NCBI GenBank assembly: GCA_030621535.1
Contig: JAUXHM010000001.1
Location: forward strand, 1-18,885
Source: Candidatus Methanophagales archaeon
Lineage (GTDB): Archaea; Halobacteriota; Syntropharchaeia; Alkanophagales; Methanospirareceae
Direction of reading: 5' to 3'
DNA: 18,885 nucleotides
Both the position numbers and the translations under genes were made by a program. The notes under the pieces are model-generated. The model worked only from the letters and a program-made list of their open reading frames with translations. It searched no databases and was not told where the DNA came from. Positions 983 to 15,885 of the stretch are shown one piece after another; within the stretch, counting starts at the first letter, position 1; each line of letters begins with the position of its first letter.

Positions 983-983
983 G

Positions 984-1584: not shown

Positions 1585-1649
1585 TTGCAGACCACTGGTG
1601 TGGCATGGCAGAGTCGAATTTTCTAGTGAAATTGCTATATCCTTAAATT

Positions 1650-1747
1650 TCACCGCAGAGCACACGGAGACCGCAAAGGCACCAGAAAGCCTAAACAATG
1701 ATTGAAACTGTCTTAAAACTCTGCGTACTCTGCGCTCTCCGCGGTGA
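1650..1747. repeat. intergenic inverted-repeat element 2 (ccgcagag type)
   Basis: Arms 1650-1677 and 1720-1747 are inverted copies, starting tcaccgc and ending gcggtga, matching at roughly 20 of 28 positions. The core is about 42 bp. It lies between the toxin remnant and the 3' end of the Mut7-C gene and resembles elements 1 and 3 in size and architecture but not in sequence. A minus-strand open frame across it (1579-1782) has repeat-derived composition and is not taken as a gene. Confidence 0.6.
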
Positions 1748-1797
1748 TAAATCACTATATTTTTAGACAGTACCCTCCTCACAATTCCAATACACCC

Positions 1798-2289
1798 TCA
1801 TTTCAACTCCCTTAACTTCTCACGCATATTCCTCCAATGACTCCCTTCCCAGTATATCCTGCCGCAACGTTCGCAAACCCAGAAATCCCACGCTCCTATC
1901 TTGCTCTTTGGCACATAACTTTTCTCTCTCAGTATCTCCTCTTCCCCTCCCTCGACTTTCCTTATCCTCGCATTGCACTCGCTGCACCTGACCGGAACGG
2001 GTTCGAGGTTTAAGGCGATATTATGCCGAAGCAGCTCCTCTAACTGTTCCATCGCATCATCGGTTTTTATTTGAACGCATTGCACACCTTTTTTCCTTGC
2101 ACCCAACACGAGATTTTTATCCCCGGTGAGCAATATTCGTGCTTCCTGCTTCGCTAAAGAGACAAGAGCATTGTCCTCGTCTTCTTCGTCTTTCTTAATC
2201 GTTATGTCCGCAGCAAAAACGGTATCGTGCCCAAGAATACGAAGCCACGTGCTTAGCTTTCCTAACATCCTGTCAGTCACGAATCGCAA
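1798..2289 (-). CDS. Mut7-C RNase domain protein with zinc ribbon
   Basis: 163-aa PIN-like ribonuclease of the Mut7-C (DUF82) family. The N-terminus (FVTDRMLGKLSTWLRILG, residues 3-20) is the family signature, with Asp6 expected in the metal site. ARILLTGDKNL (50-60) carries the second acidic site (Asp57). The C-terminus is a zinc ribbon with Cys102, Cys105, Cys139 and Cys142, followed by the conserved GRIYWEGSHWRNM. Length matches archaeal stand-alone members. The start is TTG at 2289, supported by a Shine-Dalgarno-like agaggaagg ending about four bases upstream. The cellular RNA substrate is unknown. It stands alone, transcribed away from the lipoprotein gene. Confidence 0.88.
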   Translation of the reverse strand: MRFVTDRMLGKLSTWLRILGHDTVFAADITIKKDEEDEDNALVSLAKQEARILLTGDKNLVLGARKKGVQCVQIKTDDAMEQLEELLRHNIALNLEPVPVRCSECNARIRKVEGGEEEILREKSYVPKSKIGAWDFWVCERCGRIYWEGSHWRNMREKLRELK

Positions 2290-2419
2290 GGTTCCTTCCT
2301 CTTTTTTTTTCTCTACTTACCCCTTTAATTCATCATCCGAGCTTTTAATTGAATTTTAATTAGCGCAAAACAGGGAGCGTTTCTACAACATCAAAGGTAT
2401 TTACACCATGGAATAATGC

Positions 2420-2457
2420 TATATAAAAGGAAGACTTTTTTCATTAAAAGGAGGTGA
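2420..2457 (+). promoter_or_regulatory. TATA box and strong ribosome-binding site of the lipoprotein gene
   Basis: TATA box ctatataaaag (2420-2430) followed 17 bases later by a near-perfect Shine-Dalgarno aaggaggtga (2448-2457), seven bases before the ATG at 2465. This is the strongest expression signal in the window and implies a leadered, well-translated mRNA. Confidence 0.8.
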
Positions 2458-2464
2458 AAAAAAA

Positions 2465-3382
2465 ATGGAAAGAAAAGCAATTGCAGGATTAATAGCCGTA
2501 GTTGCAATCGTAGCGGTTGCGATGTGTGCGGGATGCGTTGAGGAGGAGCGAATGAGTACAGCGGAAATAAAAGAGATGGTTCTTGCTACTGCTGAAAACA
2601 CAGATACTTACAAGTTTGACATGGATATGACACAAAAGACGCTAATAAGCAACGAGACTGATGAGACAGAGATGACGATGACAAGCACTGGAAGTGGTGT
2701 AATGGACAGAACAAGCAAAAAGATGAAGCTGGAGATGACGATGACGATGCAACTGCCTGAGGAAGCAGAAATACCTGAGACAAAGGAAATGAAGATGGAC
2801 ATATATTTCGTCAATAACTCTCTGTACACGAAGATGGACATGGGTATTCCAATGATGCCAGCGCAATGGACAAAGATGGAAATGCCCGAAGAATACTGGG
2901 AATCGCAGAACCAGATAGGGCAACAAATGGAACTGCTGAACATCTCAAAGGTAGAACTATTGGAAGATGAAAAGGTGAACGATGTGGATTGCTATGTGCT
3001 AAAACTCATGCCTGACATCGAGAAGTACTGGGAGACCGTGATGAAGCAAGAGGGGCTGGGCGAGCTAATGCAAAACCTGCGACAAAACGATAGCTTCGAC
3101 ATAGGAAAACTGATAAAGGAGATGTCTATAAAGCAATGGATTGCAAAGGGTACGAAGTTCCCGGTGAAGACAGAAGTGCAGATAAAAATGGCGATGAGCT
3201 CCGCAGACTTGAACATACCTGAAACGGAGGAGGAATTTACAATGACGATGGATCAAAGAACCAACCTAGTTTTCTATGACTATAACAAGCCAGTGACGAT
3301 AGAATTGCCAAAAGAGGCGGAAAGTGCTACCGGGTTTCCAATGTTTCCACCGCTGAATCAAACAGCTACAACTGCTGCATAA
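2465..3382 (+). CDS. exported lipoprotein, LolA-like fold suspected
   Basis: 305 aa. Residues 1-23 form a signal peptide (basic ERK, hydrophobic AIAGLIAVVAIVAVAM) ending in a lipobox-like CAGC with Cys24 as the lipidated residue. The mature part is unusually rich in Met, Glu, Lys and Thr, with repeated EMTMT-type strands and alternating hydrophobic/polar residues, e.g. around 60-90 and 240-260. That suggests a large beta-sheet like LolA/LppX proteins; DUF6612-like archaeal and firmicute lipoproteins look similar. It probably sits on the outer face of the membrane and binds a hydrophobic ligand, but that is inference. Strong promoter, ribosome-binding site and terminator make it a self-contained unit that is likely highly expressed. 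Confidence 0.72.
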   Translation: MERKAIAGLIAVVAIVAVAMCAGCVEEERMSTAEIKEMVLATAENTDTYKFDMDMTQKTLISNETDETEMTMTSTGSGVMDRTSKKMKLEMTMTMQLPEEAEIPETKEMKMDIYFVNNSLYTKMDMGIPMMPAQWTKMEMPEEYWESQNQIGQQMELLNISKVELLEDEKVNDVDCYVLKLMPDIEKYWETVMKQEGLGELMQNLRQNDSFDIGKLIKEMSIKQWIAKGTKFPVKTEVQIKMAMSSADLNIPETEEEFTMTMDQRTNLVFYDYNKPVTIELPKEAESATGFPMFPPLNQTATTAA

Positions 3383-3398
3383 GTAAATACGAAATATA

Positions 3399-3429
3399 AA
3401 GAGGACTTCTTCCTCTTCTTTTATTTTTT
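3399..3429 (+). terminator. hairpin plus T-run terminator
   Basis: Perfect 7-bp stem aagagga / tcctctt (3399-3405 and 3411-3417) with a 5-base loop, followed by a T-rich tail (3418-3429). It lies 17 bases after the lipoprotein stop and overlaps the 3' end of the convergent ogt gene. Confidence 0.7.
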
Positions 3430-3741
3430 AAAATCAAAAAGGAAAAGAGTTTGCTCGAAATTTAGCACCTTTCTCCCTTTTATCTCTACTCCTTCCGCGC
3501 TCAGAAGCCTTATCTTCTTCTCCACGCCTGAGCTATAACCTCCAATGTCACCATCGCTTCTAACGACACGATGACAGGGAACAACAATAGGATACGGATT
3601 TGCAGCAACTGCCTGTCCAACAGCACGAGCAGCACGAACAGAGCCCGTTAGTTCTTTTGCTATCTCACCATAAGTCATTAGCTTACCCTTCGGTATTTGC
3701 TTTACCAACTTCAATACTTCCTCCTGGAAATTCCCATCCAT
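3421..3741 (-). CDS. ogt: methylated-DNA--protein-cysteine methyltransferase (Ogt type)
   Basis: 106-aa protein made of only the C-terminal DNA-binding/active-site domain of O6-alkylguanine-DNA alkyltransferases. Visible features are GKLMTYGEIAKELT (helix-turn-helix entry), SVRAARAVGQAVAANPYPI (recognition helix with the arginine finger), and the PCHRV active site with Cys56, so it should be catalytic and not an alkyltransferase-like protein, which would carry Trp or Ala there. GDIGGYSSGVEKKIRLLSAEG closes the fold. The N-terminal RNase-like domain of Ada/MGMT is absent, as in many short archaeal forms. Shares a 33-bp divergent promoter region with the gene at 3775; no Shine-Dalgarno is seen. 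Confidence 0.93.
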   Translation of the reverse strand: MDGNFQEEVLKLVKQIPKGKLMTYGEIAKELTGSVRAARAVGQAVAANPYPIVVPCHRVVRSDGDIGGYSSGVEKKIRLLSAEGVEIKGRKVLNFEQTLFLFDFKK

Positions 3742-3774
3742 ATTTTAAAATATAACATCCACTAAAACAATAAT
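3742..3774. promoter_or_regulatory. divergent promoter between ogt and the spermidine synthase-like gene
   Basis: Only 33 bp separate the two ATGs. The segment holds ttttaaaatataac (3743-3755), a TATA box placed about 25 bases before the ATG at 3775. Neither start has a Shine-Dalgarno, so leaderless or near-leaderless transcripts are likely. Confidence 0.5.
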
Positions 3775-5544
3775 ATGCATCATGCACATAACACCATGAG
3801 AGTAAATAGCTGTGGGGCTCTGCCCCACGACCCCGCAAGCCCTGTAAGGGCTTATCACACAGCCGTATTCATTGTCATTACAATAACTCTGCTTTCTACC
3901 GGAGCAGCGGCGATGATCTATGAAGTCGTCCTTTTAAGGGAATTTACACTACTTCTCGGCTCTTCTTTTTATTCCGGCTCGATAGTTTTAGCTTCGATAA
4001 TGGGCGGTCTCGCAGTTGGAAGCCTTGTCATCGGCAAACTCTCTGATAGAACCAGGAATCCATTCCTTCTGCTCTTCATCTTAGAAATGCTTATTGCCCT
4101 TATTTCCCTGGTTATAGTGCCAGTCACGAGGAGACTTGCGCTCTACGATACTTGGATGCTAACTGACGGAATAATTTATGCATTCGAATTTATCAATCTC
4201 AACCCTACTTCATGGCATGTTCTGGTATTCTACGGTTCGTGCATTTTGCTCGTTCCCGCCGTATTGATGGGTGGAGAACTCCCGGTAGCCATAAACATAT
4301 TATCAAAATACAAAACGGGAAAAATCGGCGAAGTATCCGGATACTCATATTTTTTGGATACCATAGGAGGAGTCTCAGGGGCGATTTCTGCCGGGTTCAT
4401 AATGATTCCCCTATTCGGCTCAATAACGACTGTACACACCGGGGGAATGCTGAATACAACAGGAGCAGTGAGTGTGGCGCTGTTCATGATATTCTTTCGG
4501 AGCTCTGATAGCCATTCAACGGCACTCTTTCCAAAGAACAAACATCGAAATAATCGATACAAGATGATTCCCGTGATTATATTTTTTGCTCTTTTTTTCT
4601 CTCTATTTGCCCTGGGCTACCATAAGGCGGAGCAGTTGGAATATACCACGGTTGGGGATTTGTATCGTGGACAGGTTATCCTTGAGCGAACACAGAGCAG
4701 ATACCAGGCGATAACAGTAATAGACCATGATATTCTCGGACGTGTTTTGTTCCTCGATGGTAGAGTGCAAATATCCGAGAGTGATGATGAGCCATATTCG
4801 GAGGCGCTGGTATTACCCGCCGCAGTTACATTACTGAATAACGCACATAAACATAATCTTGATGTCCTCATCATTGGTGGTGGCGACCTCGGCGTCTTAG
4901 AAGTATTAACGAGGTTCTCTGATGACAAAATAGGAAACATAACACTCGTGGATTTAGACCCCGAAGTAATAGAAATATCAAAGAAATATTTGGGCGGCAT
5001 ACATAATGATTCATGGAAAGACCATAGATATGAGTATGTGGCGATGGACGGAAGAAAATATGTAGAAGAAGCGCTTAGGGACAGTAAAAAGTTCGACCTC
5101 GTTATTTTAGACCTGCCTGACCCCAACAATGATATTCTCGCAACTTTTTATTCGCTGGAATTCTATGATGACGTTTATTCTTTGCTGGATGAAGATGGGA
5201 TAATGGCTACGCAGGCTACGCAGGCAGATTGGGCATTAGGAGCTGACGGATACGTGATAATTGCAAACACCCTGCGACAGTCACGATTTCCGGTTGTTCG
5301 AATGTACACGCAGTATATACCAAGTTTCGGGCAATGGGGATTCACAATCGCATCCAAACGTTATGACCCACTGCAAATAAGTGACGATGAGATTGCGGAT
5401 GTAATAGCGGCTATCGAAACAAACACATACAGCGAAGAGACACATTTTTCGCTCTTCGCACTTCCTCCGTGGCTTCTAAAAGATATGGAGAATACGCATT
5501 TTATAAATACGATTGATAAACCGGTAATAATTAAGGAGTATTAA
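3775..5544 (+). CDS. membrane-fused spermidine synthase-like protein
   Basis: 589 aa. About seven hydrophobic helices (roughly residues 29-50, 67-88, 97-118, 147-172, 190-218, 228-241, 263-281) form an MFS-like membrane half with the STGAAAMIYEVVLLREF signature. A cytoplasmic aminopropyltransferase domain follows (about 290-520): YQAITV, LFLDGRVQ, DDEPYSEALV, IIGGGD (367-371, SAM/dcSAM site), VDLDPEVIE, and the catalytic-loop equivalent LDLPDPNND (446-453). The usual GGGDG is GGGDL and STDP is LPDP, so substrate specificity may differ from classical SpeE. The first 25 codons run through two perfect hairpins (3812-3853) and look unlike the family; ATG 3796 is an alternative start. Followed one base later by the channel gene. 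The SpeD at 11516 could supply its aminopropyl donor. Confidence 0.85.
   Translation: MHHAHNTMRVNSCGALPHDPASPVRAYHTAVFIVITITLLSTGAAAMIYEVVLLREFTLLLGSSFYSGSIVLASIMGGLAVGSLVIGKLSDRTRNPFLLLFILEMLIALISLVIVPVTRRLALYDTWMLTDGIIYAFEFINLNPTSWHVLVFYGSCILLVPAVLMGGELPVAINILSKYKTGKIGEVSGYSYFLDTIGGVSGAISAGFIMIPLFGSITTVHTGGMLNTTGAVSVALFMIFFRSSDSHSTALFPKNKHRNNRYKMIPVIIFFALFFSLFALGYHKAEQLEYTTVGDLYRGQVILERTQSRYQAITVIDHDILGRVLFLDGRVQISESDDEPYSEALVLPAAVTLLNNAHKHNLDVLIIGGGDLGVLEVLTRFSDDKIGNITLVDLDPEVIEISKKYLGGIHNDSWKDHRYEYVAMDGRKYVEEALRDSKKFDLVILDLPDPNNDILATFYSLEFYDDVYSLLDEDGIMATQATQADWALGADGYVIIANTLRQSRFPVVRMYTQYIPSFGQWGFTIASKRYDPLQISDDEIADVIAAIETNTYSEETHFSLFALPPWLLKDMENTHFINTIDKPVIIKEY
3812..3853. repeat. twin-hairpin palindromic element inside the 5' coding region
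   Basis: Two perfect 7-bp stems with 3-base loops in a row: gtggggc-tct-gccccac (3812-3828) and aagccct-gta-agggctt (3837-3853). Weaker outer arms gctgtg (3809-3814) and cacagc (3858-3863) frame the pair. GC-rich compared with its surroundings. Confidence 0.75.
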
Positions 5545-5545
5545 G

Positions 5546-6517
5546 ATGCTACTACTACGGCTGATAAACAGGATAAGAGCTTTAAGGCGACACGTAGATA
5601 AATTCAGGATTCTATCCCTACTCCTTTTCGTGCTCATATTCGGCTCCATCGCATTTTACCATTTTGAAAGAGGCAGTGAAGGAGTAGAAGAGATATGGGA
5701 CGCTGTTTATTGGGTAATCGTGACGATTACAACCGTGGGCTATGGTGATTTCACGCCAAAAACAATGGGTGGACGGATTACATTTGTGCTGGTTGCATTG
5801 GGGGGAATAGGAACCATTGCGTATGTAATTGAACAACTTGTATCCTTTTCTACTAAGAGTCAATTAAAAAAATTATTTGGGTCGGGGGCGGTGAAGATGA
5901 AGAAGCATACCATTATTGTGGGCTGGAATACCAAAGCAGAAGAGGCGATAAAAGAGCTACGGAACGAAAATGAGGAGTTTTTGGTGGTGGGAAGCGAATT
6001 GGATCAAGCAGAGCTGAATGCGCGGGAGATACATCATATTAGTGGAGACCCGACAAAGAGCGAGACGTTGAATAGATGCGGGATCGAAGATGCAAAGACG
6101 ATGATGATACCTCTGGAGAATGATTCTGAGACGATAATGATTGCTCTCGCAACCCTGAGACTGAATCCGGGTATAAAAATCGTTGCGACATGCGAGGCGC
6201 GGGAGCACGTGGAGATGATGCGTGGAGCTGGGATTGACCATATAATCTCTTATGCGGAGCTAAGCGGCCGATTACTTGCTCAGGCGGTTACCGAGCCAGT
6301 GGTTGTGAATTTCATTATGGATGCTACGACATCGGTTGAAGGGTTTGACCTGAAACAGATAAAAGTGGGCGAGAAAACGAGGTTGGCGGATATGTCGCGG
6401 GGTGCGGGTGAGAAGGTGATTGCGCTGTACAAAAGCGGAAGGTTTGTTTTCGAGTTCGCGGCTGATGTTGTGTTGGAGGAGGGGGATTATCTGGTGGTAA
6501 TATCTTCTTCATGCTAA
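5546..6517 (+). CDS. two-TM potassium channel with RCK (TrkA-N/TrkA-C) domain
   Basis: 323 aa, the layout of MthK-type ligand-gated K+ channels. TM1 is about residues 22-38 and the pore helix is DAVYWVIVTI. The selectivity filter TTVGYGD (62-68) is intact. TM2 (about 77-100) carries the GGIG hinge. A Rossmann RCK-N domain starts at KKHTIIVGWN (119-128), a variant of the usual IVG.G.G nucleotide loop, and a TrkA-C domain covers about 255-320. A Shine-Dalgarno-like aaggag (5533-5538) lies within the last codons of the upstream gene, and the stop-to-start gap is one base, so the two are co-transcribed and probably coupled. Ion-channel genes sit beside SpeE-like and PspA/DUF350 genes in bacterial relatives of this cluster. 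Confidence 0.92.
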   Translation: MLLLRLINRIRALRRHVDKFRILSLLLFVLIFGSIAFYHFERGSEGVEEIWDAVYWVIVTITTVGYGDFTPKTMGGRITFVLVALGGIGTIAYVIEQLVSFSTKSQLKKLFGSGAVKMKKHTIIVGWNTKAEEAIKELRNENEEFLVVGSELDQAELNAREIHHISGDPTKSETLNRCGIEDAKTMMIPLENDSETIMIALATLRLNPGIKIVATCEAREHVEMMRGAGIDHIISYAELSGRLLAQAVTEPVVVNFIMDATTSVEGFDLKQIKVGEKTRLADMSRGAGEKVIALYKSGRFVFEFAADVVLEEGDYLVVISSSC

Positions 6518-6735
6518 ATTGTTATAATTTCGTTTGCATCCCAGCATGACGTTTATAGATTAATATAAAACCGTAGGGCAATACATATCCGATCATTCTC
6601 TCTGGTGCGGACTTATTGTAATGATAAATCTTTCAGCAAGTATTCCCTTCAGATTGATTGCCATATCTTCTCAATACAAATGGATTGTGTTGTGCTATAT
6701 AAAACCATGACTAAATTGATTATCACCTCTACTTC
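6518..6735. other. intergenic region with two orphan TATA-like boxes
   Basis: AT-rich convergent region. It holds two plus-strand copies of atataaaacc (6563-6572 and 6697-6706) that look like promoters, but no plausible plus-strand coding frame follows; the ATG at 6708 opens only 16 codons. No hairpin terminator was seen after the channel gene. Confidence 0.35.
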
Positions 6736-6912
6736 TCACTCAAAACAAGGCCTGTAACCACTACCAAGCTCATGACCGCAAGCAAGACACCGATAATATC
6801 CATAACAATTATAAGTCTCCCCAGTCATAAGATTACGGGTCTTACTTGAAACTTCAAATACAACACTCATTTTTCCACATTTTGGACACTGGAGGTTTGG
6901 TATTGGTTCCAT
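6736..6912 (-). CDS. small zinc-ribbon protein (58 aa)
   Basis: Starts MEPIPNLQCPKCGKMSVVFE and contains a second pair in CLACGHELGSGY, so it carries two CxxC knuckles (Cys9/Cys12 and a pair about 33 residues later), a treble-clef or rubredoxin-like zinc ribbon. No other domain. The ATG at 6912 is preferred: a purine-rich aagagg lies about 13 bases upstream. The longer frame to 6978 runs into the terminal repeat of a MITE-like element, giving 22 residues that do not look conserved. Function unknown; such proteins often bind nucleic acid or a partner protein. Confidence 0.6.
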   Translation of the reverse strand: MEPIPNLQCPKCGKMSVVFEVSSKTRNLMTGETYNCYGYYRCLACGHELGSGYRPCFE

Positions 6913-6959
6913 TATATCTTCATTCCTCTTTAAGAAGCTCCATCCACGCCACCCCGCAT

Positions 6960-7075
6960 TAAAGAGCTTGTCCCACAATTAGATATTTTACGAAATGGAA
7001 TGAGTATTTTCCGATATAAAACCCTATCTGAGCTTATCTTTGTCGAAGATTTTGAATTTTGAGACAGCCTCTTTA
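6960..7075. mobile_element. MITE-like element with 21-bp terminal inverted repeats
   Basis: Ends 6960-6980 (TAAAGAGCTTGTC...) and 7055-7075 (inverse of TAAAGAGGCTGTC...) match at about 17 of 21 positions. The 116-bp unit has no coding frame, begins and ends with TA as in IS630/mariner-type insertions, and carries an internal TATA-like box (7014-7023). No matching transposase lies in the window. Confidence 0.55.
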
Positions 7076-7128
7076 GTACAAGACCTGCACTAAGCACAGA
7101 CCTGCGACTCAAGTTTCAATATACATAC

Positions 7129-7736
7129 TCACTTATCATAGGGGATATATAAGCTTTTCGGTTTTTTTTCGCCATCGCATTTTTGAGAACCCATAAAAAG
7201 TTTAGCGTAAAGTGTCATATATCCAATTTTTAGTGTTTTCTCCTTCTCCTCATCTATCACAACTAACGGTATAGTATCGTTTTTCTCGTAATTCTTCTGC
7301 CCCGAGATATACTTCTCCACCACTTCCCACCACTTCCCACCACTTCCCACCCTTGCCCTACTGACCCATGATAACAACTTGGCGCCCACAAATGCCCCGG
7401 GCACCACTCCTTAAGCTGCGGAAATCTATCCCTCAATAGCTTACTGCTTCTCCCCTTTATTCGCTTCGCTATCCCGCTAACCGAATATTTTGGCGGATAT
7501 TTGATAAACAAATGAACATGGTCTATGTTTACAGCCATGTCAATAACCTCAATATCTAGCTCTTTACAGGTTTCACGAATGATTTCTTCCGCCGCTTCCG
7601 CAACTTCTCCCTCCAATACCTTCCCGCGCTATCTCGGTGAAAAAACTAAATGGTCCGTTAGTAGCGAAACCGTATGCCTGTCATGCTGAAGTTCATGCCT
7701 CGTTACCTTACCCCGCTTCGCTTCCACTTCGCCCAT
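7129..7736 (-). pseudogene. tnpA: IS200/IS605-family transposase TnpA, decayed
   Basis: Read on the minus strand from ATG 7736: GEVEAKRGKVTRHELQHDRH and TVSLLTDHLVFSPR, then a TAG (7629-7631) where the family has Tyr (YRGKVLEGE). The same frame continues through DHVHLFIKYPPKYSVS, which holds the HUH metal-binding His pair, KGRSSKLLRDRFPQL and LWAPSCYHGSVG. A 10-bp tandem repeat (about 7319-7352) then shifts the frame by 20 bases; the other frame resumes with EVVEKYISGQKNYEKND, containing the catalytic Tyr. Two lesions therefore kill it: one nonsense codon and one repeat expansion. A tail of about 50 codons to 7129 may be element DNA and not protein. No TnpB is nearby. It sits between the zinc-ribbon gene and recQ. 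Confidence 0.85.
7319..7352. repeat. 10-bp tandem repeat (ccacttccca), about three copies
   Basis: Three consecutive copies of a 10-base unit within the tnpA pseudogene. Removing two units (20 bases) restores a continuous TnpA reading frame from GSVGQGWEVV into EKYISGQKN. Confidence 0.85.
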
Positions 7737-7887
7737 ATTTCGTAAGGTAACTATAAGATACGTCAAAACAATATAAAAGCTTTTCTGTTGCTTTTTCTCG
7801 CGAAAATATCCAATCACAACCCTCCACGCCACAAATTTCAACTCTTAAAATTATTTTAGCTTTTCCAGCCGCGGTTCTTAAACAACT

Positions 7888-10059
7888 CTAAGATATTTTA
7901 CGATTGCTCATTTTAGAGGCCCTTACCAGGCGTATTTCTTCATAAGAATAATCATCACCCAGCTTTTCTTTTATAGGTGCTAATCTCTCGCTACCCAGAA
8001 TTGACATCGCCCTTATGATATGCTCTTGCCTATCAATATCAACGAATTTATCAATAGAAATTTCTTCGTCTGATAAAATTAGTTTTTCAATATGTGATGC
8101 TATCGTGCTTACTGCCAGATTTCTTTTCTGTGCGATTTCCTCAATTGTTAAATTTTGTTTGTAAAGTTCCAGCGTTTCTTGCAGCGTAGATGTCTTCATT
8201 GTTTTGATTTTGACCGGTGTTGGATTATAGTCGCGTACGTTGATTGCTTTGGGCTCAACATTATGTTCCTTACAATAATCAACAATTTCTTTTACGAATA
8301 ATTCCCCGTATTTCTCTAATTTGCTTTCACCAACGCCGCCGATCTTCCGAAAATCTGATAGACTTCGCGGGAACTGAGTTGCCATCACCTTCAAACTCGA
8401 ATCGTGAAAGATGATATACGGTGGCATACCCTCTGCATCAGCAAGTTCCTTCCTCAAACTTCTTAAAATTTCAAATAAACCGTGATTGAAGCCCACATCG
8501 AAATATTTTTGTGCTATCTGAACTTCTTCTGTCGGCTTGGTCAACAAAACCCTTTCTTTTTTGGATAAAATATCGCGACTCTTCTGTGTCAGTTTTACGA
8601 TTGGGTATTTGTCACCTTCCGATTTCAGATAACCGAGTTGAACGAGTTCCCTGATAAAAGCCTGCCACTGCTTTTTTGCGTATTCTTTGCCCGTGCCATA
8701 AGTCGTTAAAGTATCGTGCCGATTGCGAATTACTTTTTGACTCTTTGAGCCACACAAAACATCAGCGATGTAACTCATTCCGAACCGTTCCCTAACCTGA
8801 GAAACGCACGATATGACCTTTTGAGCGATAAATGTTCCATCAATCGTTTCCTTCGGCTCCAGGCAATTATCGCAATTCCCGCAATTCGTTTCATTTTCAT
8901 TACATGCTTCACCGAAATAATCCAACAAAATTTTCCTGCGACACGTTCTACATTCACAGAAATTAACCATCTCCTGCAATTTTTTATATGCAACTCGCTT
9001 TTCCGTTTCATCTCCTTTTTGCTCGATGAAGTACTCTATTTTTCGCTTATCGCCGTGACTGAAAAAGAGAATGCAATCGCTTCTAAGTCCGTCTCTGCCT
9101 GCCCTTCCTGTCTCTTGATAATAGCTCTCAAGATTTTTAGGTAAATCGTAATGTATCACAAAACGTATATTCGACTTATCCACGCCCATTCCAAAGGCTA
9201 TTGTTGCCACGATTATCTCAACATCGTCTTTAACAAATTTATCCTGCGTTTCCGCCCTTAAATCAGCTCTCAAGCCTGCGTGATACGGTAAAGCGCGAAA
9301 ACCGTCTTTTTGTAGTTTATTTGCCAGATCATCGGCAGATTTACGGCTGTAACAATAAATTATCCCTGGATCTCTTTTATGGTTCTTTAAATTTAAATAC
9401 TGGAGCAATTGGTGATAGGCATTATCTTTTGGTTTAACCTGGTAGAATAAATTTTCCCGGTTTAAACTCGCTTTATATATCTTTGAATTGGTTAGCCTTA
9501 ACTGTGTTATAATATCCTTTTGTACATCGGGGATAGCGGTTGCGGTCAGTGCAATTAAAGGAGCTTGAGGGAAATGCTCTTTAAGCAATTTCAACTGACG
9601 GTATTCTGGTCTAAAATCATGCCCCCATTCTGAGATGCAGTGGGCTTCGTCAACGGCAATCAAACTGATATTCAAACGCTGTAAGAATAGCAAGAAGTCG
9701 GGTAGCATTATTCTTTCGGGAGCCACATAAAGAATGCTGATTCTGTTCTCCAGCAATTCCAATTTTATGTGTTGTATCTCATCAAAACGCAAAGAGCTGT
9801 TGATATATGCTGCCGCAATTCCATTTGCTTTTAACCCATCGACTTGGTCTTTCATCAAAGCAATAAGCGGTGAGACAACGATCGTCACACCGTCCAAAAG
9901 AAGGGCTGGTAATTGATAACACAAAGATTTACCCCCACCCGTTGGCATCAGGGCAAAAACATCGTTTTTTAGCAGAATATCCTTGACGATCTCCTCTTGA
10001 AGAGGAAGAAATGAAGTATAACCAAAGTATTTTTGTAGTGCTTGATACGCTAATTCCAT
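7888..10059 (-). CDS. recQ: ATP-dependent DNA helicase RecQ
   Basis: 723 aa from ATG 10059. Superfamily 2 helicase: motif I PTGGGKS (39-45), motif II DEAH (137-140), the RecQ aromatic loop after it (SEWGHDFRPEYR), motif VI QETGRAGRDG (315-324). The RQC zinc site uses Cys368/370/373, 386, 393, 396 and 399. A winged-helix region (about 405-500), an HRDC domain (about 520-597) and a C-terminal helix-turn-helix (about 624-662, TIEEIAQKRNLAVSTIASHI) follow, the full bacterial layout. An upstream frame to 10191 only overlaps the preceding gene. The start lies seven bases after that gene's stop, with gagggt just upstream, so it is the last gene of the PspA operon and probably translationally coupled. 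RecQ is uncommon in archaea, so transfer from bacteria is likely. It acts at stalled forks and in recombination. Confidence 0.96.
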   Translation of the reverse strand: MELAYQALQKYFGYTSFLPLQEEIVKDILLKNDVFALMPTGGGKSLCYQLPALLLDGVTIVVSPLIALMKDQVDGLKANGIAAAYINSSLRFDEIQHIKLELLENRISILYVAPERIMLPDFLLFLQRLNISLIAVDEAHCISEWGHDFRPEYRQLKLLKEHFPQAPLIALTATAIPDVQKDIITQLRLTNSKIYKASLNRENLFYQVKPKDNAYHQLLQYLNLKNHKRDPGIIYCYSRKSADDLANKLQKDGFRALPYHAGLRADLRAETQDKFVKDDVEIIVATIAFGMGVDKSNIRFVIHYDLPKNLESYYQETGRAGRDGLRSDCILFFSHGDKRKIEYFIEQKGDETEKRVAYKKLQEMVNFCECRTCRRKILLDYFGEACNENETNCGNCDNCLEPKETIDGTFIAQKVISCVSQVRERFGMSYIADVLCGSKSQKVIRNRHDTLTTYGTGKEYAKKQWQAFIRELVQLGYLKSEGDKYPIVKLTQKSRDILSKKERVLLTKPTEEVQIAQKYFDVGFNHGLFEILRSLRKELADAEGMPPYIIFHDSSLKVMATQFPRSLSDFRKIGGVGESKLEKYGELFVKEIVDYCKEHNVEPKAINVRDYNPTPVKIKTMKTSTLQETLELYKQNLTIEEIAQKRNLAVSTIASHIEKLILSDEEISIDKFVDIDRQEHIIRAMSILGSERLAPIKEKLGDDYSYEEIRLVRASKMSNRKIS

Positions 10060-10066
10060 GTTACCC

Positions 10067-11011
10067 TCACTTCGCCCTCCCCGGACCTCCCCCACCCCGG
10101 ATAGTATATCCCGTACCTCTCGGTCTGACAACAGGACCTGAACCGGGACGATCGTACCTGTAAGGCGAGTAGTATCCATATCCACCACCACAGACCCAAA
10201 AAAAGCCCCAGGGGTAATACCCCGTTCTCTCTCTGACTACACGAGTATCATTAACCGTAACCGTCTCATTATCCGCAGTAACGTTGAAGAACTCTCGCTG
10301 GAACGTTTCGTTCGTCGCCACTTTCTCTTTCAACGCAAGCACCTCGTCGTACGACTTCCTCGCCTCTATGTTCACCGCCGCATCTCTCGGTCCACTCAAC
10401 TTGTGTTGAGGATACTTTATCGCATACATCGTCCCCGCAAGAGGTGCAACGTGCTCAATCTCTGCGGGTTCTCCTGATTTATACCTGACATCACTCCTCA
10501 ACGATACGAAGTCATTTCCTTCCGCACGAATCTTGAACACGTCCTCTTCATAATCGTCTGAACCCGCTGCTATACAAACATATTTGCTGCGACCATCAGA
10601 ATAAGTCGTAACATAAGCAACTATATCACCATTCGCACCAGAGAACCACGAATAATCCCAGAACGGCTCCCATCCACTACTCTTCTCGCTTTCTATCGCA
10701 GTTGTGACAAAACCTACCTCCTCTAACTTCTCGTGCACCGTTTTATCAATATCCTTCGCCTCTCTTCCATATCTGTACATTATCCCGGCAACGCCATTTT
10801 CATGCACTCTCTGTGCACTGTAATGGTCTATAGAATCGTCGCCAAGCGTGTGATAGCCAAGGTAAGAAACTAAAGAAAGAGCTATTTGCTGGTCTTCTGT
10901 GTATTTCGGAGGTGCTAAAAGCGGTCCTATAACGAACGGAATCGAAGCCACAATGAGTATCACTATAACAACCATAGCTGCTATTATGCCTATATCCTCT
11001 TTAGCTACCAT
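10067..11011 (-). CDS. membrane-anchored protein with Gly/Tyr-rich tail, PspA-cluster associated
   Basis: 314 aa, family not firmly recognised. One N-terminal membrane helix (residues 8-31, IIAAMVVIVILIVASIPFVIG). A soluble alpha/beta region (about 37-250) follows, with TEDQQIALSLVSYLGYHTLG near its start. The low-complexity tail (264-314) has WGFFWVCGGGYGYYSPYRY, then Arg/Gly/Pro-rich RPRGTGYTIRGGGGPGRAK. The position next to DUF350 in a PspA/SpeD operon, the anchored topology and the Gly-rich tail resemble the DUF4247 and DUF1190 (YjfM) proteins of bacterial counterparts, but I cannot show homology by eye. The tail could mediate aggregation or surface binding. Starts at ATG 11011, 62 bases after the DUF350 stop; ends seven bases before recQ. 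Confidence 0.7.
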   Translation of the reverse strand: MVAKEDIGIIAAMVVIVILIVASIPFVIGPLLAPPKYTEDQQIALSLVSYLGYHTLGDDSIDHYSAQRVHENGVAGIMYRYGREAKDIDKTVHEKLEEVGFVTTAIESEKSSGWEPFWDYSWFSGANGDIVAYVTTYSDGRSKYVCIAAGSDDYEEDVFKIRAEGNDFVSLRSDVRYKSGEPAEIEHVAPLAGTMYAIKYPQHKLSGPRDAAVNIEARKSYDEVLALKEKVATNETFQREFFNVTADNETVTVNDTRVVRERTGYYPWGFFWVCGGGYGYYSPYRYDRPGSGPVVRPRGTGYTIRGGGGPGRAK

Positions 11012-11075
11012 TTCTTCTTATTATTATTTGTTTTTCTTTTAGCACAGGTTTTCTTTTTTCTAAAAAGAAAAAGTG

Positions 11076-11513
11076 TCACGTCATTATTACCGCCATTGCC
11101 ACCACCGAAACTGCAACGTATACAACACCTGAAAGTATCCCGGCTGCGACGTTACCGTTACTTATCGCCTCTTGCAGTTTTATCTTCGGCACTAATAATA
11201 TATCAAACACGAAGAAAAGGAGTGTTGCAACGAGCGAAATCCCTATGCTCCAGCCAATTGTTAATGCGATGTCATGAACCAGTAAACCAGTTCCCGGTGA
11301 CATAATCGTCGCCGCAACCACCATACCTATGCCGAGCAACATCAAACTGAAAAAAATCGCAACCGCACTATTCTTTCCTTCTATCGCTTCCTGCAAATCG
11401 AATTTCCGGAACACGAGAATATCATAAACTTTCACTAACAGCATGCTAAGACCTATCCCTATTACCAGCCATAAGAGTGCTACCCACGCCGTTACTATCA
11501 TTTCATTTACCAT
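11076..11513 (-). CDS. DUF350 membrane protein (YjfL-like)
   Basis: 145 aa with four membrane helices (about 8-28, 48-70, 80-104, 120-143). The two halves are internal repeats: each ends a helix pair with an amphipathic linker, FDLQEAIEGKNSAVAI in the first and IKLQEAISNGNVAAGI in the second. That duplication and the Gln-Glu-Ala-Ile motif define DUF350. Family members accompany PspA-type proteins (E. coli YjfL next to YjfJ) and SpeE-like genes in mycobacteria; their molecular role is not known. The start lies two bases after the speD stop, so it is co-translated with it. Confidence 0.92.
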   Translation of the reverse strand: MVNEMIVTAWVALLWLVIGIGLSMLLVKVYDILVFRKFDLQEAIEGKNSAVAIFFSLMLLGIGMVVAATIMSPGTGLLVHDIALTIGWSIGISLVATLLFFVFDILLVPKIKLQEAISNGNVAAGILSGVVYVAVSVVAMAVIMT

Positions 11514-11515
11514 TT

Positions 11516-11857
11516 TTATTCACCCCCTATTATTTTATCCAGTACAATCTCCGCTTTACCACCCAGCATATCTTCCATGAGCTCCAGAACCTTTTTCGCA
11601 TCCCCACGCCCACATGACATCACCTCTACGAATATCGAATTCTCCTCCGGATACGTATGAACGGCAATATGGCTCTCTGCAAGCAATGCAATCGCTGTAA
11701 GTCCCGATGGGCTGAACTTATGGCTGACGGTTTTCAGTAACGTCAAATCCATCAACTTCGCCGCTTTCTCTATCGTTTCCTCCATCAGCTCAACATTTTC
11801 CAGCTTTTCCACATTGCAATCCTTTATCAGTCCTATAATAGCTTGAATTCTTGCCAT
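11516..11857 (-). CDS. speD: S-adenosylmethionine decarboxylase proenzyme
   Basis: 113 aa, prokaryotic class 1B SpeD. It self-cleaves before Ser62 in LAESHIAVHTYPEE to make the pyruvoyl cofactor; His67 and Cys82 (VMSCG) are the partners expected in processing and catalysis. VSHKFSPSGLTAIALL precedes the site, as in the family. Decarboxylated SAM is the aminopropyl donor for spermidine-type polyamines, linking this gene to the SpeE-like protein at 3775. A related archaeal family has been recruited as arginine decarboxylase, which the sequence alone does not fully exclude. The ATG at 11857 is chosen: gaggaga sits just upstream. A GTG at 11872 overlaps the previous stop (GTGA) and would add five residues. 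Confidence 0.93.
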   Translation of the reverse strand: MARIQAIIGLIKDCNVEKLENVELMEETIEKAAKLMDLTLLKTVSHKFSPSGLTAIALLAESHIAVHTYPEENSIFVEVMSCGRGDAKKVLELMEDMLGGKAEIVLDKIIGGE

Positions 11858-11868
11858 TTCTCTTCTCC

Positions 11869-12213
11869 TCACCCGGGGACCAACCCCTCTCCCTTGAACA
11901 CCAAAATTGCCTCCTCGTAGCTCAAATCCTCCGGCGGAAGTGTCAAATCCGGCGTTGGAAACGCTTCCTCTTCGTCCAGCACCTCGTCCATCTCAATGTC
12001 TTCACCCACGAGCAGCCCCCTTGACCTTATCAGTTCAAATATCTGCGGATAAAGTTCGTTGAACTTCTCTTCTGCAAGCTCCCCGCGTTCATTAAGAGTC
12101 GCGAGTTCGTTGTCCGGCTCGTTTATCTTATCTAATATCTCCGCTTTGTTCGCCACTGGGAACGCCCACGTCCCGCCACCAGAAATGCCAATTAATAAAT
12201 ATTCACGCGACAT
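11869..12213 (-). CDS. unrecognised 114-aa acidic protein of the PspA operon
   Basis: No family recognised. The N-terminus (SREYLLIGISGGGTWAFPVA) is a beta-strand/Gly-turn start. The rest is very acidic, with NELATLNERGELAEEKF, a DIEMDEVLDEEEAFPTPD loop, and a C-terminal helix (LSYEEAILVFKGEG). No signal peptide, membrane helix or cysteines, so it is cytoplasmic. It lies between pspA and speD. GTG 12222 overlaps the pspA stop, while ATG 12213 has a better-placed ggggaag upstream. The locked position in the operon suggests a dedicated partner of PspA or SpeD, possibly an adaptor, but the function is open. Confidence 0.75.
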   Translation of the reverse strand: MSREYLLIGISGGGTWAFPVANKAEILDKINEPDNELATLNERGELAEEKFNELYPQIFELIRSRGLLVGEDIEMDEVLDEEEAFPTPDLTLPPEDLSYEEAILVFKGEGLVPG

Positions 12214-12218
12214 TTTCT

Positions 12219-12965
12219 TCACTTCCCCTTCAGCTCCTCGTCAAGTGAGGAAAGCGACCCTGAGACTTTCAATTCTCGCTCGATTTCGCTTGTACCCAAG
12301 TCCGCAGTCCCCGCGCCGGTGCCGAGTTCCGCCGATGCTTCCGCTTTTGCCTCTTCCATCCGAATCTTCTCCGTCATCCGCTGCACCGTCAAATCAACGT
12401 CGCTAATCTCGCCGTCTATTCCCGAGAGCGCCTCGTTAACGCGCTTACCCGCCTTCGCCATCGCGTAATCAGATTTTAAATCCGCTCGCTTGTCCGCGAA
12501 CCTCCGAATCTTCGCGTTTAAATCCACCTGCTTGTCCTTCAGCATCCTCACCTTCTTCTCCATTTCCGCAACGGACTGCTGAAGCAGCGGTATTCTCTCC
12601 CTCGTCCTCGTCTCCTCCTCCAACAGTTGCGCCGCCGCACTGTTCAGTTGCTCCACCTGCAGTTCCGCCTTCTCGCGCTTCTCGCCCTCTAACTCCGCCA
12701 CTCTCTCCTCCAACGCCACCGCCCGCTTTCTGTACTCCAACGCCTTGTTGTGCACCGAGCCCACCTTCTTCTGTGCCTCGTTCAATTCCCGCTTCTTCAG
12801 GTTCTTCGCCGCGATTGAATCCCGCACTGCGACCGCCACCTTCTTATTCTCCTCAACCAATTTCTCGTGTGCGTAGTCGAGTTGTTCCGCCGGGTCTTCA
12901 AATCGCTCTACTATTTTGCTCATCTTCGCTTTAGCCACATTTGAGAACCTATCAATCAATCCCAT
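12219..12965 (-). CDS. pspA: PspA/IM30 (ESCRT-III-like) membrane-stress protein
   Basis: 248 aa. It begins with the family's amphipathic membrane-binding helix (MGLIDRFSNVAKAKMSKIV), followed by FEDPAEQLDYAHEKL, the PspA/Vipp1 helix-1 signature. A nearly continuous coiled coil runs to about residue 205, dense in Glu/Lys/Arg heptads. The C-terminal extension (about 208-248) is Gly/Ala/Ser-rich then acidic. Family members polymerise on damaged membranes and repair or remodel them. The neighbours (DUF4178 upstream, SpeD and DUF350 downstream) point to the YjfJ branch and not the PspF-regulated E. coli pspABC type. The start follows the DUF4178 stop by 12 bases, with aggggtga as Shine-Dalgarno. 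Confidence 0.93.
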   Translation of the reverse strand: MGLIDRFSNVAKAKMSKIVERFEDPAEQLDYAHEKLVEENKKVAVAVRDSIAAKNLKKRELNEAQKKVGSVHNKALEYRKRAVALEERVAELEGEKREKAELQVEQLNSAAAQLLEEETRTRERIPLLQQSVAEMEKKVRMLKDKQVDLNAKIRRFADKRADLKSDYAMAKAGKRVNEALSGIDGEISDVDLTVQRMTEKIRMEEAKAEASAELGTGAGTADLGTSEIERELKVSGSLSSLDEELKGK

Positions 12966-12977
12966 TTTTCATCACCC

Positions 12978-13526
12978 CTAAAAAATTTCCAAACTTCTCC
13001 TCGATAAATCATTTCCCCTATATACTTCCAGCCTTGCCCCTGCGGGCTTTTCCAAGCTGAGGATTTCTCCTGTTCGCTCGAACTCGCAATCGGCATACGT
13101 TACCTGCGTTCCAGCAGCAACGTCCCACGGAAAAGATCCCTCAACCAGGACAATCCTTGCTTTTCCCACTTCGTTCGCCTTCACTTTTTCCCCTTGAAAG
13201 TCAAATACAGTTCCTTCTTTTAGTTCATCAGGGTCTGGTGCATCCGCAGATTCGACTTCGTCAAGTAAATCAAGTGTCGTCCCTTCCTTTGATAACCATT
13301 TGTGCTCTTCCGTATCTGAGAACTCCAAATAGAACTCTTCCCAGCGCCCTCCTCCCCAGTCATATACCAGCCTTCCAAGCACGGTGAAATCTAATCCATC
13401 TATCGTTCCGATACTGCCTTCTCTTAATTCTTCTGGTTTGGTATCTGGTCTAACATCTCCCCGCTGCTTCTTCTTTTTTTCTTTTCTTATTTCAAGTATC
13501 CTTTTGCTTCGCTCGAATAATCCCAT
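12978..13526 (-). CDS. DUF4178 protein, first gene of the PspA operon
   Basis: 182 aa. After a basic head (residues 1-30, Lys/Arg-rich) comes EGSIGTIDGLDFTVLGRLVY and WEEFYLEFSDTEEHKWLSKE, the DUF4178 pattern of a small all-beta unit with a conserved Trp-Glu-Glu-Phe/Tyr strand. A second beta-rich half (about 100-182) repeats the theme (ELKEGTVFDFQGEKVKANEVG, then VTYADCEFERTGEILSLEKP), suggesting a duplicated domain. E. coli YjfK (DUF2491) holds the equivalent place next to its PspA homologue. No membrane helix; the basic head may touch lipid or PspA. A TATA box 25-34 bases upstream and no leader make this the operon's first gene. Confidence 0.85.
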   Translation of the reverse strand: MGLFERSKRILEIRKEKKKKQRGDVRPDTKPEELREGSIGTIDGLDFTVLGRLVYDWGGGRWEEFYLEFSDTEEHKWLSKEGTTLDLLDEVESADAPDPDELKEGTVFDFQGEKVKANEVGKARIVLVEGSFPWDVAAGTQVTYADCEFERTGEILSLEKPAGARLEVYRGNDLSRRSLEIF

Positions 13527-13560
13527 TCTTAACTTTTTCTTTGTCTTTGATTTATATAAT
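13527..13560 (-). promoter_or_regulatory. promoter of the PspA-SpeD-DUF350 operon
   Basis: On the minus strand, a TATA box attatataaat (13560-13550) stands 24-34 bases before the ATG at 13526, with an A-rich spacer and no Shine-Dalgarno. It fits a leaderless transcript. It lies just 12 bases after the stop of the upstream DUF39 gene, so the PspA operon has its own start of transcription. Confidence 0.65.
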
Positions 13561-13571
13561 ACCTTTTCATT

Positions 13572-15101
13572 TTAAATCCTTAATTTCCACTGCCATCTCC
13601 TCATCCTTCTTTTACCTATCAATTTGCTTATCTCGTCGCTTGTTACCATTCCAATCACGCTTCTATCCTTACTCACGACAGGTAACGCAGAAATGTTGTA
13701 TTTCTCCAATTTGCGTATTACCAGTTCGAGGGGCTCATCCGAATCAGCGGTAATCACGTTTCTTGTCATTATTTCTGTCAACCCTCTGTGTTGCGTTGCC
13801 ACTGCCGTTGAGATATCCCATGCGGTTACGATACCCACAAGTTTGTTCCCTGCTGATACAACGGGGACATGTGTAGTCTGTGTTTTCAGGAGTAATTTCG
13901 CTGCATCTGCTATGCTCGCCCGTTCACTTATTGTGGTCACTTCGCGTATCATTATATCCTTCACCAGAGGCAGCTCCTCCGTCTGTTTCATCGACTTTAA
14001 CACGGTATCCGTTGGCAGTCGCCCTACGGGCAGCGACAATAAAAACTCCCCTGCTTCTATTTCACTCTTTAACTCGTCCGCAATTCGCTTCGCCATATAA
14101 AAACTTGAAAGAGGCGACGTTGGCACTTCATTACCTTCTATTTCTATCATCCCTGTTTTTAACTCCTCGTAGGTAACTTTCCTCACTACTGGTCGTTCCC
14201 TTCTGCCAACGCCATAATCAAGCACTTCTGTTACAATATCCGCATCTTGTATTCCCGTTTTCTTCGCTATATCCTCGTTCAGTACAGGTATCGGTATTCC
14301 AATACCCACATACAGCGTCACGCCATATTTGTGGAATGTAGCACCTCGGAGGTATTCTGTACTCATTTCCTTCAGGTTCCCCGTGACCATTAACGTTCCA
14401 AAGCGGTCGGCAGGGTTGTGCTGCGTTCCCGTTCCCACCACATATCCGCTTGCACCGCAAAGGAAAATCCTTGTTCCCAATCCTATGGTCTCGAAATCGG
14501 GGTCGTTAGAAAGAGGAGAAAGGGCTCCTGCACCACAATAAGTCGCATTACGATAATTAGGTAGCAGCGTGCCCATATAGGTATATAAAGTTCTGTCCGT
14601 GGAGTTCGCCCCGACTTCATGCCGTTGTGATGAATTCCGCGGATTTATCATTATCGCTTGATTCACCTCGTCAAGCGTAATTGTTGTTTCTATTTCTTTA
14701 CGAGGATAGCAGTCTGTGCCGTAGCCGATAGCCTTCATCTCTAATTGCTTACCCGCCACTAAATCCTCTATTGCATGCCCGCCACCATATTCCATTCCTT
14801 TCTCCTCGGATAATTGTGCTGCTCCTAAATACGCATCTACCGCTGCAAGACCCGTATATGCTTCTACGTCGTTAAGCCACACACGCTGCATTTTTAGCGG
14901 GGGTTCGGAATGCCCGAAGTTGATGAGCACACCTGAGGAACACATAGGGCCAAACGTCCCGGTGGTTACGACATCCACTTCCTTCACTGCTTCTTCTGCC
15001 CCTAACTCGCTCACTATCTCGCTCATTCTATCCGCTGTTACTACGCGAACACTGCCATCCCCGATTTTTTCGTTTATCTCCCCTATGGTTTTAGTTTGCA
15101 T
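13572..15101 (-). CDS. L-aspartate semialdehyde sulfurtransferase (DUF39 with CBS pair), homocysteine synthesis
   Basis: 509 aa. The DUF39/HcyS domain (about 1-365) contains Cys54 in GPMCSSGVL and Cys131 in YGTDCYPRKE, the same positions as the two cysteines studied in Methanosarcina acetivorans MA1821, where a persulfide is carried. GAGALSPLSNDP and LCGASGYVVGTGTQHNP are further family blocks. Two CBS domains follow (about 379-435 and 441-496), often binding adenine nucleotides or SAM, so feedback by methionine/SAM level is plausible. It makes homocysteine from aspartate semialdehyde and sulfide. The ferredoxin-type partner (MA1822) is not in the window. It starts 19 bases after cooC, behind a gaggggggg tract that can serve as the ribosome-binding site. 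Confidence 0.92.
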   Translation of the reverse strand: MQTKTIGEINEKIGDGSVRVVTADRMSEIVSELGAEEAVKEVDVVTTGTFGPMCSSGVLINFGHSEPPLKMQRVWLNDVEAYTGLAAVDAYLGAAQLSEEKGMEYGGGHAIEDLVAGKQLEMKAIGYGTDCYPRKEIETTITLDEVNQAIMINPRNSSQRHEVGANSTDRTLYTYMGTLLPNYRNATYCGAGALSPLSNDPDFETIGLGTRIFLCGASGYVVGTGTQHNPADRFGTLMVTGNLKEMSTEYLRGATFHKYGVTLYVGIGIPIPVLNEDIAKKTGIQDADIVTEVLDYGVGRRERPVVRKVTYEELKTGMIEIEGNEVPTSPLSSFYMAKRIADELKSEIEAGEFLLSLPVGRLPTDTVLKSMKQTEELPLVKDIMIREVTTISERASIADAAKLLLKTQTTHVPVVSAGNKLVGIVTAWDISTAVATQHRGLTEIMTRNVITADSDEPLELVIRKLEKYNISALPVVSKDRSVIGMVTSDEISKLIGKRRMRRWQWKLRI

Positions 15102-15120
15102 AGTACTAATATCCCCCCCC

Positions 15121-15885
15121 TCACATTATAGCTCTCGCTATTCTTCTTATACCGATAACAGACGGCGCATCGTCAGGTAAATCCACGATTGGCACGCCTT
15201 TAAAGTCATATTCAGGGATTAAAGGGTCAAAGGGTATTATTTCCTCTATCGTGAGTCCGTATTTCTTTGCTTCTTCTATTATCATCGCCTCCATGCCCTC
15301 TGGTATTTTATTCGCTATGTTCATCATTTGCTTCACGTCAGCATCTATTTCCTCGGCAATCCGCCTGAGCCGCAATGCGGTTTTTATGCTCTTCAGCGTC
15401 ATGTCCAGCACGACAAGCATCACGTCAACATCTCTTGTCGTTCTTCTACTGAGGTGCTCCAGACCCGCTTCGCAATCTATTATCGTGTAATCGTAGTTCT
15501 TCGTCAACGTGTCTATAATCATTCGTATTATGTGATTTACCGGGCAGTAGCAGCCCGGCCCCTCAGGGCGGCCCATAACCAGCAGGTCATACTGCTCTTC
15601 CTCTTCTATTATCGCCGCTATTTTACCCTCGAATTGCGACCTCACGTCTAACGTAACGTCCCGATGCTTATCCTCCAACAGATCCTCCCTTACATCACCC
15701 GCCGTCTTATCATACGATATCCCAAGTGCCTCAGGCAAGTTTGAATCGGCATCCGCATCCACGGCTAATATGCAAACGTCCTGACCTGCAAGTTTCAGTA
15801 TTTCAGTGATTAACCGCGCGGAAATAGCTGTCTTCCCTGTTCCCCCCTTCCCCGCTACCGCGATTATTTTGCCTTTTCGCATCAT
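15121..15885 (-). CDS. cooC: CooC-type nickel-insertion ATPase (MinD/SIMIBI family)
   Basis: 254 aa from ATG 15885. Deviant Walker A GKGGTGKT (12-19) with the signature lysine of SIMIBI ATPases, ILAVDADADSNLPEALG (switch I region), and GPGCYCPVNH with Cys112 and Cys114, matching the numbering of the metal-binding CxC of Carboxydothermus CooC1. YTIIDCEAGLEHLSRRT is the Walker B/switch II region. CooC proteins dimerise on ATP and load nickel into CO dehydrogenase/acetyl-CoA synthase, so the organism should use the Wood-Ljungdahl route. A TTG at 15909 would add eight residues, but gaggaga lies seven bases before ATG 15885. Directly upstream of the DUF39 gene and likely co-transcribed with it. 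Confidence 0.92.
   Translation of the reverse strand: MMRKGKIIAVAGKGGTGKTAISARLITEILKLAGQDVCILAVDADADSNLPEALGISYDKTAGDVREDLLEDKHRDVTLDVRSQFEGKIAAIIEEEEQYDLLVMGRPEGPGCYCPVNHIIRMIIDTLTKNYDYTIIDCEAGLEHLSRRTTRDVDVMLVVLDMTLKSIKTALRLRRIAEEIDADVKQMMNIANKIPEGMEAMIIEEAKKYGLTIEEIIPFDPLIPEYDFKGVPIVDLPDDAPSVIGIRRIARAIM

Follow-up and report, generated by a model that had tools for sequence, protein, structure and literature searches.

A PspA-polyamine module in two converging arms in methane- and alkane-oxidizing archaea, with a lysine-ending anchored protein as possible acceptor

Bacterial operons that join PspA to polyamine genes fall into several groups, and PspA systems have been proposed to monitor polyamines or the aminopropylation of other substrates, according to the consulted sections of Ravi et al. 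2024 (PMC11237479). Archaeal Psp proteins are covered by Popp et al. 2022, whose main text does not mention DUF350 or spermidine (PMC9239133). Here we describe a related eight-gene locus in an 18,885-nucleotide (nt) stretch of a Candidatus Methanophagales genome (GCA_030621535.1, contig JAUXHM010000001.1, positions 1 to 18,885), hereafter the window. One arm encodes DUF4178, PspA, PspAA, SpeD of the S-adenosylmethionine (AdoMet) decarboxylase type, DUF350 and an anchored Gly/Tyr-rich protein of 314 amino acids (aa), the tail protein; the other encodes a membrane-fused SpeE and an RCK potassium channel (Table 1). Sequence comparison makes it very probable that the eight genes belong together, as a single accessory module for membrane stress whose two transcription units converge. 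An initial annotation of the window had listed the same genes, and profile matches and open reading frame (ORF) coordinates bear the list out, save that its 114-aa protein of no assigned family is PspAA (PF22743). Its likening of the locus to bacterial clusters was correct, but such clusters had already been published, as the consulted part of Ravi et al. 2024 (PMC11237479) makes clear.

Group 2 of that work, as the consulted sections describe it (PMC11237479), shares with the window PspA, a spermidine-synthase-like protein fused to seven transmembrane (TM) segments, DUF350, DUF4178 and, possibly, its lipoprotein. The window module differs in being archaeal, in its two converging arms, in the addition of SpeD and the RCK channel, and in having PspAA instead of a CesT/Tir-like partner of PspA. 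Because of this partner we file it as a variant of group 2 and not as a member. Its tail protein, a candidate counterpart of the group 2 lipoprotein Ctha_1186, has no Pfam match, and a comparison with the Alteromonas lipoprotein detected no homology. The ATP-grasp group (E. coli yjfIJKLMC; Ravi group 3) likewise holds PspA, DUF350 and an anchored protein whose tail is conserved, but a peptide-spermidine ligase replaces SpeD and SpeE and the tail ends in Gly or Ser instead of Lys. No GSP_synth-type ATP-grasp ligase was found among the scanned window ORFs, the rest of the genome not having been searched. A potassium channel with a ligand-sensing domain, a feature of Ravi group 3, is present in the window module; this channel and its counterpart in a yjf-type operon on a Rhizobium plasmid (L135, 1-5158) are 27% identical (E 6e-15). 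That operon is also two-armed, with PspA-YjfI on one strand and channel-YjfK-DUF350-DUF1190-ligase on the other.

Plasmid operons of Novosphingobium and Alteromonas resemble the window in fused SpeE, SpeD, DUF350, DUF4178 and a Lys-ending anchored protein, but PspA is replaced by an SPFH or TelA-like protein and no channel is annotated; the Novosphingobium operon additionally has an amine-oxidase-like FAD protein. DUF4178 adjoins fused SpeE in 5/5 matching plasmid records. Elsewhere in ANME-1, PspA is also followed by PspAA in six of seven loci examined (the seventh has no PspAA in its ORF list), but this PspA is of a different type (89-106 bits against 39-54 for the module) and comes without the module's polyamine genes; nine other genomes of the order hold it and none of those genes. 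The PspAA form in methane- and alkane-oxidizing archaea is a new variant of a general kind published for bacteria. Among the matches listed by a search of open-access literature, none described the archaeal module or the tail-end rule set out below.

The distribution of the genes was surveyed across the order, in 53 genomes. An identical set of 16 holds SpeD of the module type (85-93 bits), DUF350 and the PspA type with low scores (39-54 bits), and the module's fused SpeE occurs in 20, comprising all 16 and four others. Fisher p values for this co-occurrence, uncorrected for shared descent, were 3e-10 over genomes, 1.6e-4 over 15 genera and 7e-5 within the eight module-holding genera. The gene order of the six-gene arm is kept in 15 more of the surveyed genomes (14 complete, one cut by a contig end), in locus L016 and in a Methanolliviera-like genome, so the arrangement is not a chance observation. 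In seven of the 16 genomes a single contig carries both arms, and they converge every time; the gap between the aligned ends is 22 bp in G028, 167 bp in G047 and 544 bp in G043, and elsewhere RecQ, RecQ remains or other DNA intervene. L016 also holds both arms, 2.9 kb apart, and the distance matrix of one arm correlates with that of the other (r 0.93, 0/2000 permutations). Co-occurrence and the conserved convergent neighbourhood together uphold the proposal of the initial annotation that the two arms are one module. Neither pattern that the initial annotation named as refuting this was seen: SpeE accompanied SpeD, DUF350 and PspA in 16/16 genomes, and PF01564 matched only the module SpeE or its pieces there, with no separate canonical speE. 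The channel gene of G028 is frame-shifted in the assembly.

Several observations count against so close a bond. The arms are on different contigs in nine of the 16 genomes; six of these cases may be contig breaks, and in at least three (G031, G049, G025) the arms are truly apart, with at least 7 kb of flank past the end of the six-gene arm and no SpeE arm. The arm trees agree in only 3/14 splits. The Methanolliviera-like genome G086, so called from the name on its tail protein, has the six-gene arm and the Lys tail and lacks the module SpeE. The separation in G031, G049 and G025, with the four genomes in which SpeE stands without the six-gene arm, could suggest neighbours without a common function. 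We consider this highly improbable, given the perfectly nested presence across the 53 genomes, the repeated adjacency and the joining of the same parts in bacteria.

SpeE is absent from 28/53 genomes while ArgDC is present in 45/53, so the module is not the housekeeping polyamine route. A canonical spermidine operon was also rejected; canonical soluble SpeD and SpeE sit in other genomes (G002, G033, G034; SpeE only in G001), without DUF350. The fused SpeE of G042 was dropped as a module member at 27% identity. Elsewhere in the phylum, DUF350 matches were found in 32 genomes outside ANME-1, and among the 16 of these whose loci were examined other module genes (tblastn, 1e-3) appeared in G086 only.

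Both enzymes retain the residues expected of them. The AdoMet decarboxylase Ser, His and Cys are kept in 17/18 aligned SpeD sequences, and the conserved Pro of class 1b SpeD is present too, at a position deduced from the published text. Ornithine-decarboxylating relatives of SpeD carry a Gln/Thr/Phe/Tyr signature in the portion of Li et al. 2023 consulted (PMC10407285). The window SpeD lacks this signature, at positions likewise deduced from the text, and was rejected as a SpeDC ornithine decarboxylase. Second SpeD-like genes of G018, G050 and G051 (L049, L050, L051) look ornithine-decarboxylase-like by the same signature, and the open frames of those in G050 and G051 include an acetyltransferase-like stretch upstream. 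The window SpeE has the synthase fold and the catalytic Asp of the spermidine synthase family, keeping both active-site Asp (D-L-P-D-P) and the YQ motif. Thirteen aligned fused SpeE read D-L/F-P-D-P, and soluble ones D-S-T-D-P. We therefore think it probable, from these conserved residues, that SpeD makes decarboxylated AdoMet and that the membrane-tied SpeE uses it to aminopropylate an amine at the membrane. This much of the route proposed in the initial annotation is supported; for its lipid product nothing was found.

Which side of the membrane the SpeE domain occupies was approached by hydropathy in 14 fused proteins, with crude TM calls. Six have 7 TM segments, all with more Lys and Arg on the N-terminal side, seven have 6 (only three leaning to N-terminal Lys and Arg) and one has 8. 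The SpeE domain falls outside in the six with 7 TM segments, but the other eight of the 14 are mixed and the outside placement is weak. The Cys count of the SpeE domain, taken as a side marker, was 0 in 44/91 fused proteins and 1 to 5 in the rest.

The SpeE-type and ATP-grasp operons also differ at the end of the anchored tail protein. In bacterial SpeE-type loci, defined here as holding at least two of SpeD, DUF350 and DUF4178, a protein that is anchored or has a lipobox, and whose end is rich in Gly, Ser, Arg and Tyr, terminates in Lys in 8/8 cases from six genera (Novosphingobium with three records, Gemmatirosa, Tritonibacter, Alteromonas, Ensifer and Burkholderia; SpeD was unmatched in Tritonibacter and DUF350 in Burkholderia, and DUF4178 was not clear in Ensifer). 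In ATP-grasp loci a tail protein was present in 11/12 examined, Photobacterium, with no tail found, being left out of the count, and 11/11 end in Gly or Ser (Gly-Gly 6, Gly-Ser 4, Cys-Gly 1). Among neighbouring bacterial proteins, Lys ends are found in 6/108 and Gly or Ser ends in 20/108; counted as seven lineages against nine, the difference gives a post hoc Fisher p of 9e-5. Of 17 proteins homologous to the Alteromonas lipoprotein, with identities as low as 28-30%, 16 have a terminal Lys and one ends in Lys-Gly-Asn. Cupriavidus and Rhodovulum, with no operon partners found, and Haloarcula, with partners absent and a Val-ending lipoprotein, were left out on the SpeE side. GenBank names YjfC and YgiC peptide-spermidine ligases, a naming that reportedly goes back to Pederick and colleagues in 2023. 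At L141 3396-3893, next to a gene of the spermidine-ligase type, a tail protein of 165 aa is annotated as tRNA-dihydrouridine synthase, a name that looks wrong. The presence in operons of this kind of an anchored protein whose tail is rich in Gly, Ser, Arg and Tyr, apparently ending in Lys with SpeE and in Gly or Ser with ATP-grasp, would be new.

The 314-aa protein of the window gave no Pfam or NCBIfam match at E 0.1. A protein search returned 22 homologues, archaeal where named and several of the distant ones lipoprotein-like, and terminal Lys is kept in 22/22 of these and in 17/17 copies from fetched loci. The tail is the most conserved part, with 54% of positions invariant in seven divergent rows against 36% for the body. 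A weak structure model (mean predicted local distance difference test score, pLDDT, 54) has a helix at 4-28, a domain at about 62-160 and pLDDT below 50 over residues 244-314, and the archaeal tail is accordingly predicted to be disordered. Its body and that of the Alteromonas lipoprotein show no homology by hhalign (probability 1.2), and despite this the two proteins share a Gly-Ser/Thr-Gly..Arg..Gly-Pro...Lys end.

We hypothesize a membrane-stress module in which the C-terminus of the tail protein is the polyamine acceptor, and give this reading as a whole a probability of about 0.5. SpeD would produce decarboxylated AdoMet, from which the membrane-tied SpeE would aminopropylate an amine at the membrane. 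The Lys side chain is an aminobutyl group, corresponding to that half of spermidine, so a single transfer to the terminal Lys would give a spermidine-like tip. The ATP-grasp ligase of yjf-type operons would act on the Gly or Ser end by ligating spermidine. From the sequence comparison we tentatively propose that the acceptor is the C-terminal Lys of the anchored protein, giving a tethered tip with spermidine's chain, and that bacterial operons of the yjf type arrive at a similar tip through their C-terminal Gly or Ser. Polyamine chains of silaffins are attached to lysine. Of the two products offered by the initial annotation, a modified lipid or a modified peptide, the peptide fits the comparison best, as the C-terminus of the Gly/Tyr-rich protein; the lipid is unsupported. 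Silaffins provide a precedent for polyamine-conjugated proteins in the part of PMC6356823 consulted.

For the remaining components, PspA with PspAA may patch or shape the membrane, DUF350 may move or bind a cationic compound, and the RCK channel may adjust potassium as polycation charge changes; we regard these roles as possible, at a little under even odds. The earlier casting of PspA and DUF350 as sensors and of the channel as an ion balancer is guesswork. A wider proposal, which we hold to be unlikely, is that a polyamine tip is set on the C-terminus of bacterial and archaeal envelope proteins by two unrelated enzyme classes, ATP-grasp ligases amidating a Gly or Ser end with spermidine and membrane-fused SpeE aminopropylating a Lys end. 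The SpeE domain would then lie outside with the tail, conditional on the hydropathy topology (7 TM, N-terminus inside), decarboxylated AdoMet would be exported, perhaps by the 7TM part or DUF350, and PspA and the channel would be tied to the tip.

A number of points tell against the tail as acceptor. Decarboxylated AdoMet is made inside and the tail seems to be outside, so the membrane may separate the two. Lys ends 67/318 archaeal ORFs, and the archaeal row alone says little. In bacteria the Lys pattern was seen first in the initial loci, with only Ensifer, N. resinovorum, Burkholderia and the Alteromonas homologues checked afterwards, and 6/8 tail ORFs are unannotated in their records and were picked as TM or lipobox ORFs rich in Gly and Ser. 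The Haloarcula fused SpeE adjoins a Val-ending lipoprotein, but lacks SpeD, DUF350, DUF4178 and the second Asp. The one exception to the SpeD triad, with Asp in place of the catalytic His, is that of G086 (L083 5834-6181), the genome without a module SpeE. The second Asp of SpeE, finally, presumably binds the far amine of putrescine and would suit a free diamine as well or better. At the Haloarcula plasmid locus (L144 4096-8159) Gly replaces this second Asp, and the neighbours are a lipoprotein with a Tat signal and a protein resembling DUF2617, with a score below cut-off.

The retention of both Asp also feeds a different explanation, that free spermidine or N1-aminopropylagmatine is made at the membrane under stress and stabilizes membrane and nucleic acids, the channel releasing or admitting potassium and the tail protein being an unrelated envelope part. 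The closest solved structure to the SpeE domain is an archaeal-type polyamine aminopropyltransferase (7xif, E 6.5e-40), ArgDC would supply agmatine in the 45/53 genomes noted above, and agmatine is also used by most spermidine synthases tested, as stated in the consulted part of PMC11107197. This does not account for the fusion of SpeE to a membrane part, for operon partners that stay the same, or for a tail end that is conserved yet differs between ATP-grasp and SpeE-type operons; we judge a free product plausible, short of probable. Transfer to a lipid or surface polymer would suit a membrane-fused SpeE and a PspA that acts on membranes, but is very unlikely, as the conserved eight-gene set has no lipid-handling gene and no sequence pointer to a lipid acceptor.

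Through the tail-end rule, the reason for polyamine genes in PspA operons becomes directly testable on the terminal residue of a single small protein. If true, the proposal would add a protein modification common to bacteria and archaea and give a role to DUF350, DUF4178, DUF1190 and orphan AdoMet decarboxylases. For ANME-1 it means an accessory envelope-stress system in some lineages, replaced in others by the plain PspA-PspAA pair.

Table 1. Features of the two arms and their surroundings in the window.
Feature	Position	Strand	Description
Membrane-fused SpeE (spermidine-synthase-like)	3775..5544	+	About 7 TM segments, then synthase domain; PF01564 112.9 bits at 356-528, PF17284, NCBIfam MFS_SpdSyn
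Potassium channel	5546..6517	+	Pore TVGYGD plus TrkA/RCK domain; PF07885 (Ion_trans_2), PF02254 (TrkA_N)
Anchored Gly/Tyr-rich tail protein, 314 aa	10067..11011	-	N-terminal TM segment, conserved body, conserved tail with terminal Lys
DUF350 (YjfL-like) membrane protein	11076..11513	-	Two similar halves; PF03994 81 bits; alignment of 18
SpeD, AdoMet decarboxylase type	11516..11872	-	PF02675 90.8 bits; NCBIfam TIGR03330 above cut-off; Ser/His/Cys kept
PspAA, PspA-associated protein	11869..12222	-	117-codon ORF, 114 aa from ATG; PF22743 31.1 bits, cut-off 27
PspA/IM30 (ESCRT-III-like) protein	12219..12965	-	PF04012 47.1 bits, cut-off 33.9
DUF4178 protein	12978..13526	-	First gene of conserved minus arm; PF13785 80.8 bits
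RecQ helicase	ORF 7888-10191	-	Between arms; likely ATG a few nt past the stop of the 314-aa gene
IS200-type Y1 transposase gene	7263-7616	-	Between arms
80-aa ORF	Between arms		Zinc-ribbon scores below cut-off
O6-methylguanine-DNA methyltransferase domain gene	3421-3741	-	Divergent to SpeE

The window genome, G000, is estimated to be 60.6% complete. The minus-strand genes overlap or nearly touch, as first described, with 4-nt overlaps between the PspA and PspAA ORFs and between the PspAA and SpeD ORFs and 2 nt from SpeD to DUF350; the SpeE and channel genes are 1 nt apart. The converging arms are separated by 3.55 kb (6517 to 10067) holding RecQ, the IS200-like gene and the 80-aa ORF; the 1.4 kb given in the initial annotation fits only with RecQ counted as the operon end. 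An Rfam scan of the window gave zero matches. Close relatives by the fused SpeE are named Methanophagales or ANME-1, and some Methanosarcinales, Syntrophoarchaeum or ANME-2. The methyltransferase-domain gene is divergent to SpeE in several relatives too, and in G050, G037 and G035 DNA related to the IS200-type gene occurs close to the end of the arm. RecQ follows the 314-aa gene complete or nearly so in G000, G024, G045, G050 and G052, and is broken in G027, G043 and G051.

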